Shown: positions 29,660 to 35,835 of the stretch, in pieces | How the letters are laid out: each line of letters begins with the position of its first letter | How positions within the stretch are numbered: position 1 is the stretch's first letter | From: Halarcobacter anaerophilus | GTDB lineage: Bacteria > Campylobacterota > Campylobacteria > Campylobacterales > Arcobacteraceae | NCBI RefSeq assembly: GCF_006459125.1 | Contig: NZ_CP041070.1 | Coordinates: 1,922,001-1,986,000 of the forward strand | DNA length: 64,000 nucleotides | Direction of reading: 5' to 3' | Program-made: the position numbers and the translations under genes | The notes under the pieces: model-generated | What the model was told of the DNA's origin: nothing | What the model saw: only the letters and a program-made list of their open reading frames with translations | Database searches by the model: none

Positions 29660-30910
29660 TTAAAGTATATGGTCGCTTTTACGAGGTTGAGGCAAAATAA
29701 GATTTAATAGAATTCCGGTAATTGCTCCAAGACCTATTCCTGAAAAAGGAACTCCACCGAAATTAAAAATCATTCCTCCAATAGAAAATACCAAAATCAT
29801 AGAAACAATAATTAAATTTCTAGGACAATTAAAGTCCACATTTGCTCTTGTCAAAGTAGAGATACCGACACTTGCTATAATTCCGAAAAGAAGAAGCATA
29901 ACTCCACCCATAACAGGTACGGGAATAGTTGCCAAAACTCCTCCTAATTTTCCTACAAAAGCCAAAACAATAGCAAAAATTGCCGACCAAGTCATAATTG
30001 CAGGATTAAAAGCTTTCGTAACGGTAACTGCACCTGTAACTTCCGAATAGGTTGTATTTGGAGGACCGCCGAATAAAGATGCAATAGAAGTTGCCAATCC
30101 GTCACCTAATAGAGTATTTTTTAATCCCGGTTTTTTCAAATAATCAGTTTTCGTTACATTTGAAATTGTTAACATATCACCTATATGTTCAATTGCAGGA
30201 GCAATCGCGATAGGTAAAATAAATAAAATAGCCTGCCAGTTAAATTCAGGAGCCGTAAAACTAGGAATTGCAAACCACGCAGCATTTGAGACAGGAGAGA
30301 AATCTATAATCCCCATAAAAAGTGAAACAGTATAACCTACTATAATAGCACCTAAAATAGGAATAAGTCTAAAAATTCCAGTTCCTAATAAAGAGATAAA
30401 TACCATTGTAAAAAGAGAAATCATCGAAACAGTGATTGCCGTATCAAAAGGGATTAACTCAATTGCTCCGTCACCTGTTTTTCCCATTGCCATATTAACT
30501 GCAACAGGAGATAAAATAAGCCCGATAGAGATAATAACAGGACCTACAACAATAGGAGGTAAAAGTTTATGAATAAAATTATCTCCTTTTAATCTAATAA
30601 TCAAACTTAAAACAACATATAATAATCCTGCTGCTACAAGCCCCGATAATGTTGCTGCCAAACCCCAAGTTTTTACCCCTTCTGAAATGGGAGCAATAAA
30701 AGCAAAAGATGAAGCTAAAAATATAGGCGGAACTGCACCTCTATTTACAAACTGAAAAACCAATGTACCGATACCTGCCGTGAATAGTGCTACATTTGGA
30801 TCAAGTCCTGTTAAAATAGGAACTAACACTAATGCACCAAAAGCCACAAACAAGAACTGTAAACCTATAATCGAGTCTTTGACTCTAAAATTGTAATCCG
30901 TGGGTTTCAT
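29660..30910 (-). CDS. Uracil/xanthine permease (NCS2 family, UraA-like)
   Basis: Inner-membrane nucleobase:proton symporter (416 aa, ~14 hydrophobic segments). NAT/NCS2 features: LPPIVVGPVIISIG, PIAIAPAIEHIGD (conserved Glu of the substrate site in helix 8) and NTTYSEVTGAVTVT (helix 10). Divergent from upp with 129 bp between start codons, which makes uracil the likely substrate: uptake plus phosphoribosylation. Confidence 0.9.
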   Translation of the reverse strand: MKPTDYNFRVKDSIIGLQFLFVAFGALVLVPILTGLDPNVALFTAGIGTLVFQFVNRGAVPPIFLASSFAFIAPISEGVKTWGLAATLSGLVAAGLLYVVLSLIIRLKGDNFIHKLLPPIVVGPVIISIGLILSPVAVNMAMGKTGDGAIELIPFDTAITVSMISLFTMVFISLLGTGIFRLIPILGAIIVGYTVSLFMGIIDFSPVSNAAWFAIPSFTAPEFNWQAILFILPIAIAPAIEHIGDMLTISNVTKTDYLKKPGLKNTLLGDGLATSIASLFGGPPNTTYSEVTGAVTVTKAFNPAIMTWSAIFAIVLAFVGKLGGVLATIPVPVMGGVMLLLFGIIASVGISTLTRANVDFNCPRNLIIVSMILVFSIGGMIFNFGGVPFSGIGLGAITGILLNLILPQPRKSDHIL

Positions 30911-31039: not shown

Positions 31040-31663
31040 ATGTATAAAGAGAGCACAAATGTTGTGGTTAAACATCTTGTAAACAGATTAAGAGATGTAA
31101 GGACTGCTTCAAATGAATTTAGACTAACAATTGAAGAAATATCAAGAATCGTAGCTTCAGAAGCTTTAAGTGAGTTTAAAACAATTACTACAAATATCGA
31201 AACTTGGCAAGGACCTTTAGATGTTGAGATGATAGAAGTACAAAAACTTGTTTTAATACCTATTTTAAGAGCAGGAGAACCGATGCTTACGGGAATTTTA
31301 AGAACGCTTCCTTATGCAAAAAGCGGTTTTTTGGCAATGAAAAGAGATGAAGAAACAGCAGAAAGTAAACTTTTTTATGAAAATGTTCCGCCTTTAGAAG
31401 ATAAAACGGTAATAATCCTTGATCCTATGGTTGCAACAGGAGGTTCTTTAATTGATGGAATTGATTATCTAAAAAATAAAGGGGCTCAAAAAATTATTTC
31501 ATTAAATATTTTAGGTGCTCCAGAAGGTGTAGAAGCAGTTACAAAAGCTCACCCTGACGTTAATATGTATATTGCTCAAATTGATGAAAGATTAGATGAA
31601 AAAAAATATATCAGACCAGGACTTGGAGATGCAGGAGACAGAGCTTTTAATACTCATATTTAA
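31040..31663 (+). CDS. upp: Uracil phosphoribosyltransferase
   Basis: Makes UMP from uracil and PRPP (salvage). PRPP loop VIILDPMVATGGS; PILRAGEPML and the uracil-binding C-terminus YIRPGLGDAGDRAFNT are diagnostic. I place the start at ATG 31040, giving 207 residues, the family length. The frame is open upstream to 30935, but those 35 residues are unconserved and lie across a likely -10 element (GATAATAT near 31003). Confidence 0.95.
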   Translation: MYKESTNVVVKHLVNRLRDVRTASNEFRLTIEEISRIVASEALSEFKTITTNIETWQGPLDVEMIEVQKLVLIPILRAGEPMLTGILRTLPYAKSGFLAMKRDEETAESKLFYENVPPLEDKTVIILDPMVATGGSLIDGIDYLKNKGAQKIISLNILGAPEGVEAVTKAHPDVNMYIAQIDERLDEKKYIRPGLGDAGDRAFNTHI

Positions 31664-32421
31664 TACTCTAGAGGATTTGGATATTTATATTTAAATCCTC
31701 TTTCTTCTATTTTACTTCCATCTATAATTCTATTGAAATACTCTTTTTTATTCTCAAATAGAGGTTTTTTAAATCCATACTTTAAAGCATTTTTGCAATA
31801 TATCTCTTTTCTTGTAGGATGTTCACTACTGCATAAATTAAAAACTCCATTTAAATTATTTTTCAAAGCAAATTTAACCGCTTCAATAACATCTTTTTGA
31901 TGGACATAATTAACTTTTACATCTTCACTATCTAAGGTTTTTCCAGAGAAATATCTTCCTGCAATTCTGTTTTCGCCCATTAATCCTGCACATCTAAAAA
32001 TTAAATCTGTTTTATCTTTTATAAACTCTTCAATATCGAATATTTTTTGAGATTTTGGATTAATGATTTTTATATCTTCTCTAAAAATATTTTCAGTATC
32101 CGGATAAATAGAAGTTGAACTAATAAAAATGATTTTTTCTATCTTAGCTATATTTTTGTGATTATATATTTCCCCCAGAAATTTTAAATAGTCTTCAAAT
32201 TTTGAAGGAGGAAAATTTATAAAAAGATAGTTTGTATCTAAAAGTTCATCTAAACTTTTTGTATTTTTTTCATCTAATAAATAAGAGTTTAAACCCTTAT
32301 TTATCAAATCCTTTAGTTTTTCTTCACTTCTTACGGATACTTTTACTTCAAACTCTTTTTTTAACTCAAAAGCCAAAGGAAGTCCAAGCCACCCTGCTGC
32401 TAAAATAGAAAAAGTTTTCAT
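31660..32421 (-). CDS. NAD(P)-dependent epimerase-like protein (YeeZ type SDR)
   Basis: 253 residues. A Rossmann start of unusual form, LAAGWLGLPLAFELKK, is like the YeeZ/extended-SDR branch. IIFISSTSIYPDT supplies a Ser and Tyr at the SDR active-site strand, but the usual YxxxK Lys is not obvious. Substrate unknown. It overlaps the ion channel gene by one base and converges on upp with a 4-bp overlap. Confidence 0.72.
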   Translation of the reverse strand: MKTFSILAAGWLGLPLAFELKKEFEVKVSVRSEEKLKDLINKGLNSYLLDEKNTKSLDELLDTNYLFINFPPSKFEDYLKFLGEIYNHKNIAKIEKIIFISSTSIYPDTENIFREDIKIINPKSQKIFDIEEFIKDKTDLIFRCAGLMGENRIAGRYFSGKTLDSEDVKVNYVHQKDVIEAVKFALKNNLNGVFNLCSSEHPTRKEIYCKNALKYGFKKPLFENKKEYFNRIIDGSKIEERGFKYKYPNPLEY

Positions 32422-33221
32422 TACTCTTTATCTTTTAACTGATTAACTTCAACTCTTAAACTTTTAATTTCATTTAACAAAGTATCCAATTTTTTACTGT
32501 CTTCATGCATTTCATCATGAAAATTTGATTCCTGAATTTTTTGCATCTCTCCTATGATTACTGCAACAAAAAGATTGAAAAATACAAAAGCCGCTATTAT
32601 TACAAAAGATACGAAATATATCCAAGACAGAGGATAAACTTCCATTGCTTCATACATAACATCAGTCCAGTCCTCAAAAGTCAATATTCTAAAAAGAGTT
32701 AACATTGAAACTAAAAAATCTCTCCATAACCCGGAAGGCAAATCATGAAAATAGAAGTTTCCAACAATTGCATAAATATAAAAAATAATAAACATTAAAA
32801 TTACGATATCGATTATTGAAGGAATAGCTCTGATTAACATATCGATTATTGCTTTAAGTTCGGGTCTTGCAGTAAAAAGTCTTAAAACTCTAAATACTCT
32901 TAAAACCCTTGCAACAGCTGCAAAACCTGATTGTTCCAAAGGTAATAGGGTTACGACTACGATTATAAAATCAAAAACATTCCAGCCTGATTTAAAAAAG
33001 TTTATAAATCTCTTTTCTGCAACCATTTTAATAGCGATTTCAAAAACAAAATATATTGTTACAAAATAATCTGCCAATCTTAAAAAAAGCGCATAATTTT
33101 CTTCAACCTCTCCTAATGTTTTAAACCCCAATACGGAAGCGTAGGCTAAAATTATAAATGTAGTTAAATTGGAAAACCACCTGGCATCTCGGATCTCCTC
33201 AATTTTAGCTATTACCGTCAT
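32421..33221 (-). CDS. Single-domain voltage-gated cation channel (BacNav/CavMr-like)
   Basis: 266 residues, one six-helix repeat that would assemble as a tetramer. S4 voltage sensor has Arg at 105, 108, 111 and 114 (ARVLRVFRVLRLF). The pore follows: P-helix LVSMLTLFRIL and filter T181-F-E-D-W-T-D187, then S6 (FVFFNLFVAVIIGEMQ) and a C-terminal coiled coil (~240-266). NavAb from Arcobacter butzleri has TLESWSM at this place; three acidic residues per subunit here resemble calcium channels (engineered CavAb TLDDWSD, vertebrate Cav domain I T-x-E-G-W-T-D). It lies between a one-base overlap with the DUF423 gene and one with the epimerase gene. Confidence 0.9.
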   Translation of the reverse strand: MTVIAKIEEIRDARWFSNLTTFIILAYASVLGFKTLGEVEENYALFLRLADYFVTIYFVFEIAIKMVAEKRFINFFKSGWNVFDFIIVVVTLLPLEQSGFAAVARVLRVFRVLRLFTARPELKAIIDMLIRAIPSIIDIVILMFIIFYIYAIVGNFYFHDLPSGLWRDFLVSMLTLFRILTFEDWTDVMYEAMEVYPLSWIYFVSFVIIAAFVFFNLFVAVIIGEMQKIQESNFHDEMHEDSKKLDTLLNEIKSLRVEVNQLKDKE

Positions 33222-33610
33222 TATAACTCCTTGATAACGCTAAATGCCGCTAATACCCATCCAATAATCATCAAAGTACCTCCAATAGGAGTTATAGCAC
33301 CGATAACAGGTATATTTAAAAGAACTAATAAATAAAGGGAAAATGAGAAAATTATCATACCAATAAATATCAACCATCCAGAAATAACACTTCTTTTTGA
33401 ATCACCTTTTAAGTAGATAATAAAAGCAATGGCAAAAAGCCCTAAAGTATTATAAAATTGGTATTCAACTCCCGTGTGATATACGGTTAACATAGCAGGT
33501 TCGACAATTGATTTTAAACCATGAGCACCGAAAGCACCTAAAGCAATGGCTAACGCCATCATAAAAGAGGCAATAGTTAAAAATAGTTTAACATTTTTAT
33601 TAGTTTTCAT
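33221..33610 (-). CDS. DUF423 (YgdD/TMEM256-like) membrane protein
   Basis: 129 residues with four hydrophobic helices. ALGAFGAHGLKSI and the YHTGVEYQFYNTLGLFAI segment are the signature of the DUF423 family. C-terminal PIGGTLMIIGW also fits. Function unknown in bacteria. First gene of the operon with the voltage-gated channel; the coupling suggests a membrane-related role but proves nothing. Confidence 0.88.
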   Translation of the reverse strand: MKTNKNVKLFLTIASFMMALAIALGAFGAHGLKSIVEPAMLTVYHTGVEYQFYNTLGLFAIAFIIYLKGDSKRSVISGWLIFIGMIIFSFSLYLLVLLNIPVIGAITPIGGTLMIIGWVLAAFSVIKEL

Positions 33611-34548: not shown

Positions 34549-35835
34549 TTATAAAATAAAAGCTAAAGCACTAATAAAAGTAATAACAAAAATACCTAGA
34601 TTTAAATCCTTAGTCTCTCTTTTTGCTAATTTAATAATAGTGTAAATCAAAAATCCGGCAGCAATCCCGTTTGTAATCGAGTATGTTAAAGGCATAAATA
34701 TTACCATTAAAAATGCTCCTGCACTTGTTGCCAAATCTGAATCTTCAAAATTTATTTTACCAAGTTCCGTAAACATTAGTACTCCTACTACTACAAGTAC
34801 CGGATAAATAGCATTACCCGGTATTGCTTTAAAAAGAGGAAGCATAAACAGTGTCGTAATAAAAAACAGTGCCGTAAATACTGCTGTAAGTCCTGTTCTT
34901 CCTCCCTCTTCTACTCCTGAAGCACTCTCTATAAAAGAAGTTGTTGTTGATACTCCAAGCAAAGATCCTGCTGTTGTTGCTATTGCATCTGCTTCTAAAG
35001 TTTTTTGTAAAGATTTATCATCTTTATTATTCTCTTGAAACAAGTTTGCTCTTGTTCCTACTCCTGTTAAAGTTCCTAAAGTATCAAACATATCTGTTAT
35101 TAAAAAGGTAATTATTACAGGAAGTAAAGAGAGAGTAAGGGCACTTGTTATATCAAGTTCAAATGCTATTGGAGCAATTGAAGAAGGTGTTGAAAGAATA
35201 CCTTCAGGAAGTTTTCCTATTCCTAAAAACCAAGCCACTGCGGAAGTTATTGCAATTGCTAAAATAAAAGCTCCTTTTATTCTATATGAATAAAAAGTAA
35301 AAGAGAGAAGCAAACCTAAAACACCCAAAAGTACGTTTTCATTTGAAAAATCTCCTAATGAGACCAAGGTTGCGGGATTATCTACTATCATTCCCATCTG
35401 TTTTAATCCGATAAAGGCAATAAAAGAACCTATCCCTGCACTTATTGCACGTCTTAAATTCATAGGAATCGAAGTCATTATCCAAATTCTAAAATTTGTA
35501 AAAGATAAGAGTACGAAAAGCAATCCTGATATAAATACTATTCCTAAAGCTGTTTGCCAAGGTATTTTCATTCCTAAAACCAAACCGTAAGAAAAATATG
35601 CGTTTAATCCCATACCTACTGACATTGCTATTGGTGTATTTGACCATATACCACTAAATAGTGTTGCTAAAATCGTGATTAATGCAGTTGCCGTTACTAC
35701 TGCATCCATAGGCAGTCCTGCATCTGCTAATATAAAACCGTTTACAGGTACTATATACATCATTGTCAAAAATGTTGTAAAGCCTGCACTAAGTTCGGTA
35801 CTTACACTTGTATTATGTTCTTTTAGTTTAAACAT
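34549..35835 (-). CDS. NCS2-family purine permease (AzgA/GhxP-like)
   Basis: 428 residues with 12-14 membrane segments. Family motifs: TTFLTMMYIVPVNGFILADAG near the N-terminus, NAYFSYGL, FLITDMFDTLGTLTGVGTR (conserved Asp), and TAGSLLGVSTTTSFIESASG. This branch transports adenine, guanine or hypoxanthine with protons. Operon with the downstream phosphoribosyltransferase. The upstream 113 bp holds a divergent promoter region shared with the ARMT1-like gene. Confidence 0.9.
   Translation of the reverse strand: MFKLKEHNTSVSTELSAGFTTFLTMMYIVPVNGFILADAGLPMDAVVTATALITILATLFSGIWSNTPIAMSVGMGLNAYFSYGLVLGMKIPWQTALGIVFISGLLFVLLSFTNFRIWIMTSIPMNLRRAISAGIGSFIAFIGLKQMGMIVDNPATLVSLGDFSNENVLLGVLGLLLSFTFYSYRIKGAFILAIAITSAVAWFLGIGKLPEGILSTPSSIAPIAFELDITSALTLSLLPVIITFLITDMFDTLGTLTGVGTRANLFQENNKDDKSLQKTLEADAIATTAGSLLGVSTTTSFIESASGVEEGGRTGLTAVFTALFFITTLFMLPLFKAIPGNAIYPVLVVVGVLMFTELGKINFEDSDLATSAGAFLMVIFMPLTYSITNGIAAGFLIYTIIKLAKRETKDLNLGIFVITFISALAFIL

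Follow-up and report, generated by a model that had tools for sequence, protein, structure and literature searches.

The question raised by this locus is which ion is passed by a bacterial voltage-gated channel whose selectivity filter, TFEDWTD, places three acidic residues in each subunit. The channel is encoded in a 64,000-nucleotide stretch of Halarcobacter anaerophilus DNA (contig NZ_CP041070.1), here termed the window, to which all coordinates without a locus label refer. A preliminary description put it forward as a candidate native prokaryotic calcium-selective channel, pointing to its filter acids, as numerous as those of the engineered Ca2+ channel CavAb (TLDDWSD), and to its resemblance to ancestor-like bacterial sodium channels (AnclNavs). 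Two AnclNavs are the principal published comparators. NavPp, from the marine myxobacterium Plesiocystis pacifica, has the filter TLEDWTD, which is like the predicted ancestral filter, and prefers Na+, with a PCa/PNa of 0.308; extracellular Ca2+ blocks it with low affinity (PMC7041947). CavMr of Meiothermus ruber, with the filter TLEGWVD, is natively Ca2+-selective, and the glycine at filter position 4 is reported as its key determinant (PMC7041947).

The channel gene and its parts are placed as follows:

32421-33221, minus strand: single-domain (six-transmembrane, 6TM) voltage-gated cation channel of 266 residues, xEDWTD or ancestor-like BacNav type, with an Ion_trans domain and a NavAb-type fold
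32868-33182, minus strand: voltage-sensor domain S1-S4, about residues 14-118 (model helices and a 33-row alignment)
32880-32909, minus strand: S4 gating arginines R105, R108, R111 and R114 (33-row alignment)
32682-32717, minus strand: P1 pore helix, residues 169-180 (AlphaFold secondary structure)
32688-32690, minus strand: Arg178 on P1, at the position of NavAb Gln172 (residue counts in the channel rows)
32661-32681, minus strand: selectivity filter TFEDWTD, residues 181-187 (translation and conservation)
32673-32675, 32670-32672 and 32661-32663, minus strand: filter acids E183, D184 and D187, respectively (translation)
32637-32669, minus strand: P2 helix, residues 185-195, without the NavAb Arg185 (alignment and model)
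32427-32534, minus strand: C-terminal helix after S6, about residues 230-265 (model; weakly conserved in the alignment)

The filter is read from the minus strand as ACT TTT GAG GAC TGG ACT GAT, and the plus strand at the same positions translates as ISPVLKS. Hence the placement of the filter in the preliminary description is right, as is its count of three acids per subunit, equal to that of CavAb. Its four regular S4 arginines are likewise found, one at every third residue and unchanged across the 33-row alignment, which includes two NavAb-like rows. The Pfam Ion_trans domain matches residues 14-232 (E 8.9e-45). An AlphaFold monomer model from the 33-row input (mean pLDDT 82.6, pTM 0.59) begins the P2 helix at W185 and renders residues 197-265 as a single unbroken helix. 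Its best structural match by VIA-align is NavAb 5yua (Z 19.8, rmsd 2.8 over 227 residues), along with CavAb 4mvz (Z 19.4), CavAb 5klb (Z 19.3) and NaChBac 6vwx (19.1). The protein thus combines a 6TM Ion_trans domain, S4 arginines, a T-x-E-x-W filter between two pore helices and the NavAb fold, as is typical of single-domain voltage-gated cation channels of the BacNav superfamily. By whole-sequence score, the top PDB matches are T-type Ca2+ channels, with 255.7 bits summed over several domains and 81 bits for the best single domain; the filter aligns with Cav3.2 domains without a gap, for example with TLEGWVDIMY and TQEDWNVVLY. The best single-domain PDB chain by sequence is 4dxw (161 bits, rising to 241 bits when profile A1 is used), which we take to be NavRh, whose filter lacks an acid at position 4.

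Searches with the whole window protein recovered an orthologue in all 16 genomes of the genus, its own included (80-100% identity), in 51 of 104 genomes of the family (at least 65% identity) and in 21 of 397 evenly sampled genomes of the class (at least 67% identity). All 51 high-identity family matches and four additional class matches were read, with the NavAb-like matches read in part, and TFEDWTD is present in each of these 55 Campylobacterota orthologues. When L043, a relative from outside the Campylobacterota, is added to them, T181 is encoded by ACT, ACC, ACA or ACG and D184 by GAT or GAC, with the D187 codon being GAT in 56/56 rows. Over a 155-codon block, comparison with the window gene gives a median dN/dS of 0.06, from 48 usable pairs of 55; six of the pairs left out are saturated (one being that with L043) and one contains N. 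Because all 55 orthologues keep the filter while its codons vary, and in view of the dN/dS of 0.06, TFEDWTD is not a chance sequence: the filter is old and under strong constraint. The distribution of the channel in the sister genus g2 (G016-G046), with only two of 31 genomes (G016 and G034) having it and 11 of 31 having a NavAb-like channel, suggests that it was lost there. A remnant of the gene was also seen in another genus of the family (L104:4148-4375, minus strand). It encodes 75 residues in which the N-terminal part joins directly to the end of S5, the gene having thus lost most of its length.

The same genome encodes a second channel, L002, of 267 residues, with the filter TLESWSM, 34% identity to the window channel and NavAb entries as its best PDB matches (5yua, E 8.6e-113). 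A second channel of this kind, at 34-37% identity, is found in nine of the 16 genomes of the genus, where both types coexist. Also in this genome is L003, which resembles a potassium channel with a TrkA-like part and has an Ion_trans match. In a tree of 94 of the 218 rows, with the big groups sampled at random, 23 canonical-side rows, among them L002, are separated from 71 xEDWTD-side rows with a support of 100/100; the window channel is therefore not a copy of L002 with an altered filter. The xEDWTD side comprises 47 TFEDWTD, 15 TLEDWTD, eight TFESWAT and one TLESWTS rows. Here the 21 Campylobacterota TFEDWTD rows (100/99) have as their sister a group of 34 rows (100/99), mostly from Gammaproteobacteria, that also holds L148, a Polarisedimenticolaceae MAG. 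Sister to both is a 16-row group (99/99) with 14 of the 15 TLEDWTD rows, the fifteenth, L151, falling among the gammaproteobacterial TFEDWTD rows. The long branches L145 and L241 are of uncertain placement in this tree.

The window channel neither clusters with NavAb orthologues nor carries a TLESWSM-type filter, and is hence no canonical NavAb-like BacNav. It has extra filter acids as in the predicted ancestor TLE(D/S)WTD, including the EDWTD of NavPp, and lies on a branch apart from the NavAb-like group, and the likeness to ancestor-like BacNavs drawn previously is thereby borne out. These features fit membership in a large xEDWTD family of Campylobacterota and Gammaproteobacteria that matches the published ancestor-like BacNavs. 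The channel is more likely a further member of this large, already described group than a new calcium channel.

A profile built from eight TFEDWTD rows was used to search 150 genomes and the genus Halomonas, with the best 30 loci read in each case. In the 150-genome sample these comprised 11 TFEDWTD, 14 TLEDWTD, two TFESWAT, one TLESWTS and two TLESWSM filters. A contig scan yielded at least 393 relatives, of which the best 80 were taken; its filter counts are biased because loci were partly picked by the TFEDWTD pattern. Neither Meiothermus ruber nor Plesiocystis pacifica, the species of CavMr and NavPp, is among the matches listed (best 80 of at least 393). The filter of L006 is TFEDWTD, and the more distant channel L214 gave no filter match. 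Glycine at position 4 occurs in two of 217 rows read, both on the NavAb-like side: these are the short Campylobacterota channels L100 (248 residues, TGEGWSE) and L105 (244 residues, TLEGWSE), which share this residue with CavMr. A channel with the filter TFDDWSG was seen on the Microvirga plasmid pMVF16-1 (L124).

The pore behind the filter differs from that of NavAb in two respects. Firstly, the distance from the filter tryptophan to the next conserved tryptophan is 13 residues in 129/129 TFEDWTD rows, 15/15 TLEDWTD rows and the TLESWTS row L238, instead of the 14 residues found in 51 of 52 TLESWSM rows (one unmeasured) and in 13/13 TFESWAT rows. Alignment to NavAb-like channels places a one-residue gap directly past the filter tryptophan. 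The register assumed in the preliminary description therefore stands in part: D187 corresponds to the position-7 aspartate of CavAb when counted from the tryptophan, but counting back from P2 breaks the match. Secondly, the P1 residue ahead of the filter is Arg in all 145 xEDWTD rows (130 TFEDWTD, 15 TLEDWTD) and Gln in all 52 TLESWSM rows. The latter also have an arginine on P2 at Trp+6, that is, NavAb Arg185 (52/52); in xEDWTD rows the five residues past the filter never include Arg or Lys, and none of the 145 rows has Cys within 20 residues past it. In NavAb, Arg185 is described as holding Gln172, which in turn holds the backbone of the filter glutamate, and no current is reported for Q172N (PMC12919392). 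Judged by these alignments, the support behind the filter appears to be made of other residues than in NavAb, and of the same residues in rows with the exact filter of NavPp, the P1 arginine and short P2 being common to TFEDWTD and TLEDWTD rows. This commonality would make NavPp, itself compared by its filter, the appropriate model, and CavAb is a poor yardstick since P2 is one residue shorter here than in NavAb and the arginine sits on P1 (R178) rather than P2. We also considered that R178 might act as a counter-charge rendering the filter less acidic than that of CavAb. This idea was dropped, as canonical channels have the P2 arginine, so that subunits of the two kinds could be equal in net charge; what differs is where the arginine sits.

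A filter of another kind has arisen within the family. A second tree, of 137 of 139 rows with the pore segment masked, contains 21 rows with TFESWAT and a P1 glutamine, nested in the gammaproteobacterial part among Halomonas and its relatives, Marinobacterium (L189) and L219. Loci with this combination are L153, L155-L157, L160, L165, L184, L185, L189, L196, L215, L219 and L265-L272. On this tree three changes are required for TFESWAT (with the starred branches forcing at least two) and three for Arg/Gln. In the genus of L153, Halomonas, the best 30 loci read divide into 21 TFEDWTD and nine TFESWAT. The changes thus come as a linked set: Gln replaces Arg on P1, Ser replaces Asp4, Ala replaces Thr6, Thr replaces Asp7, and P2 gains one residue. 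An exception is L238 (TLESWTS), with serine at position 4 yet retaining the P1 arginine and the 13-residue spacer. In open-licence main texts no published description of this switch was found, and the strings TFESW and TFESWA occur in no paper. The presence of TFEDWTD and TFESWAT in one genus offers natural pairs for testing how P1, filter and P2 jointly control selectivity.

The genomic context was surveyed for 88 loci by tblastn (E 1e-6, 40% coverage), some of the contigs being only about 3 kb long. The neighbours of the channel in the window include:

33221-33610, minus strand: small membrane protein (Pfam DUF423) upstream, whose last base is the first of the channel gene; adjacent to the channel in only some relatives
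31660-32421, minus strand: 253-residue protein downstream (ORF), whose first base is the last of the channel gene; no Pfam match at E 0.001
29660-30910: flanking permease, apparently of the NCS2 nucleobase type (Pfam Xan_ur_permease)
34549-35835: flanking permease, apparently of the NCS2 nucleobase type (by appearance)

Phosphoribosyltransferases adjoin both permeases, and the whole block reads YajQ, NCS2 permease, upp, 253-residue protein, channel, DUF423, 88-residue protein, phosphoribosyltransferase and NCS2 permease. L111, L112, L130 and L132 match all nine genes, and further Arcobacteraceae-type loci match most of them; for the gammaproteobacterial loci and the majority of the more distant Campylobacterota ones, the channel gave the sole match. 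We draw no functional link to partner genes. A mobile-element origin was likewise set aside. A viral scan with the single protein gave one match, L043:4974-5795, located at one end of a viral contig, behind apparent tail genes; because of this terminal position, and because the channel groups with L163 of Aidingimonas in the 94-row tree, it probably represents host sequence adjoining a prophage. No relative emerged from another viral scan, this time with an alignment as query, and a match to a phage record was weak (26.6% identity).

Building on the sequence, predicted fold, kinship, filter constraint and changed P1 and P2 residues established above, we put at roughly 0.6 the probability that the window channel is a voltage-gated channel of the AnclNav type, with modest, Na+-leaning selectivity and block by Ca2+. 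By analogy with NavPp, it would be a homotetramer activated by depolarization, with four S1-S4 sensors opening one central pore. The ring of E183 would form the high-field site, with that of D184 directly above and that of D187 in the first P2 turn. On a scaffold with a short P2 and a P1 arginine, the extra aspartates may retain Ca2+ in the pore rather than speed its passage, so that conduction of Na+ would exceed or roughly equal that of Ca2+, and extracellular Ca2+ would block, again as in NavPp. The earlier inference of calcium selectivity is not supported, as the filter of NavPp, one residue away from that of the window channel, has been recorded as Na+-preferring and Ca2+-blocked; moreover, the glycine at position 4 is missing here. 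NavPp had also been cited as showing that such filters can pass calcium, and some Ca2+ does get through, but the channel prefers Na+ (PMC7041947). Within the AnclNav group an aspartate at position 4 works against Ca2+ selectivity: the PCa/PNa of CavMr is more than 200 in the wild type and 7.7 in G4D, and D4G confers divalent selectivity on NavPp (PMC7041947). The authors of these recordings state that the acid count is no predictor of selectivity in this group (PMC7041947). Thus, the observation of an acidic and deeply conserved filter is correct; the evidence falls short of the claim that this is a native calcium channel.

An unlikely alternative to this Na+-leaning, Ca2+-blocked channel is a voltage-gated cation channel that admits Na+, K+, Cs+ and Ca2+ without selection or marked block. 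CavMr became more non-selective with the NavPp filter, keeping its Ca2+ preference (PCa/PNa 13.8) (PMC7041947), and the side chain at position 2, phenylalanine here, varies widely among tetrameric channels (PMC10349818); NavPp itself, however, still favours Na+ over Ca2+, Sr2+, K+ and Cs+ (PMC7041947). Judged by the same swap, a Ca2+ preference is conceivable for a TFEDWTD channel whose body resembles that of CavMr, which counts against the Na+-leaning reading. Phenylalanine at position 2 has been noted in some BacNavs and AnclNavs, and we rejected it as a cause of Ca2+ block, for which the NavAb mutant L176F gives no support, showing no such block (PMC10349818).

Also improbable is the reading of the preliminary description, a native voltage-gated Ca2+-selective channel with acid rings at positions 3, 4 and 7 acting as in CavAb. 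Beyond the three CavAb-like acids per subunit and the ungapped filter match to Cav3.2 domains, it can draw on the roughly 100-fold rise in Ca2+ over Na+ permeability when bacterial Nav channels (NavAb) are given TLEDWSM, and on the 'beacon' scheme, in which an aspartate at position 4 marks channels that are Ca2+-selective or strongly Ca2+-blocked (PMC10120453). Against this, engineered Ca2+-channel filters produced no Ca2+ selectivity in NavPp, with TLEDWSD still blocked and TLEDWAD more so (PMC7041947). The window channel lacks both the glycine at position 4 and the disulphide-bearing extended loop that follows P2 in CavMr (PMC10120453), its P2 falls one residue short of the NavAb-like length, and other residues stand behind its filter. 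A broader form of the idea is likewise improbable: that the TFEDWTD channels of Campylobacterota and Gammaproteobacteria might form a large, hitherto unrecorded family with a selectivity of its own, consisting of native Ca2+ or divalent-gated channels by virtue of Asp4, Phe2 and an arginine on P1 instead of P2, with the Halomonas and Marinobacterium members reverting to a Na+-type filter through the linked changes. That the channel is decayed or non-conducting is very improbable, for although the L104 remnant derives from the same gene and two cloned AnclNavs were silent in insect cells (PMC7041947), a missing current in Sf9 cells is weak evidence, and the window gene has an intact frame, a low dN/dS and orthologues throughout its genus.

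Were the channel Ca2+-selective after all, prokaryotes would have a second native Cav, and aspartate rather than glycine at position 4 would suffice outside engineered channels. If it is NavPp-like, as is more likely, the counting of acids fails to predict selectivity. Open-licence main texts yielded no recording of a TFEDWTD channel, and TFEDW and TFEDWT occur in none of these papers.

Set beside known systems, the window channel shares with the NavAb-like L002 the S4 arginines and the T-x-E-x-W core, L002 differing in its serine at position 4 and methionine at position 7. With CavAb, an engineered NavAb, it shares the fold and three acids per subunit at about 32% identity; CavAb has aspartate at position 3, a P1 glutamine, a P2 arginine and a P2 one residue longer, whereas the window channel has glutamate at position 3, no Gln172/Arg185 pair and a spacer of 13 instead of 14. 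CavMr is likewise single-domain and ancestor-like, with glutamate at position 3 and aspartate at position 7, but has Gly and Val at positions 4 and 6 in place of Asp184 and Thr, and a disulphide loop that is missing from the window channel, which contains no cysteine. Marinimicrobium is near Teredinibacter, and both its locus L173 and loci of the genus Halomonas carry TFEDWTD in our data. AnclNavs of Halomonas elongata and Teredinibacter turnerae with NavPp-like filters belong to the same published group and were cloned, giving no current in insect cells as reported there (PMC7041947). Closest by filter, the basis of this comparison, is NavPp, with the same acids at positions 3, 4 and 7 and the same threonine at position 6, and with leucine at position 2 where the window channel has phenylalanine.
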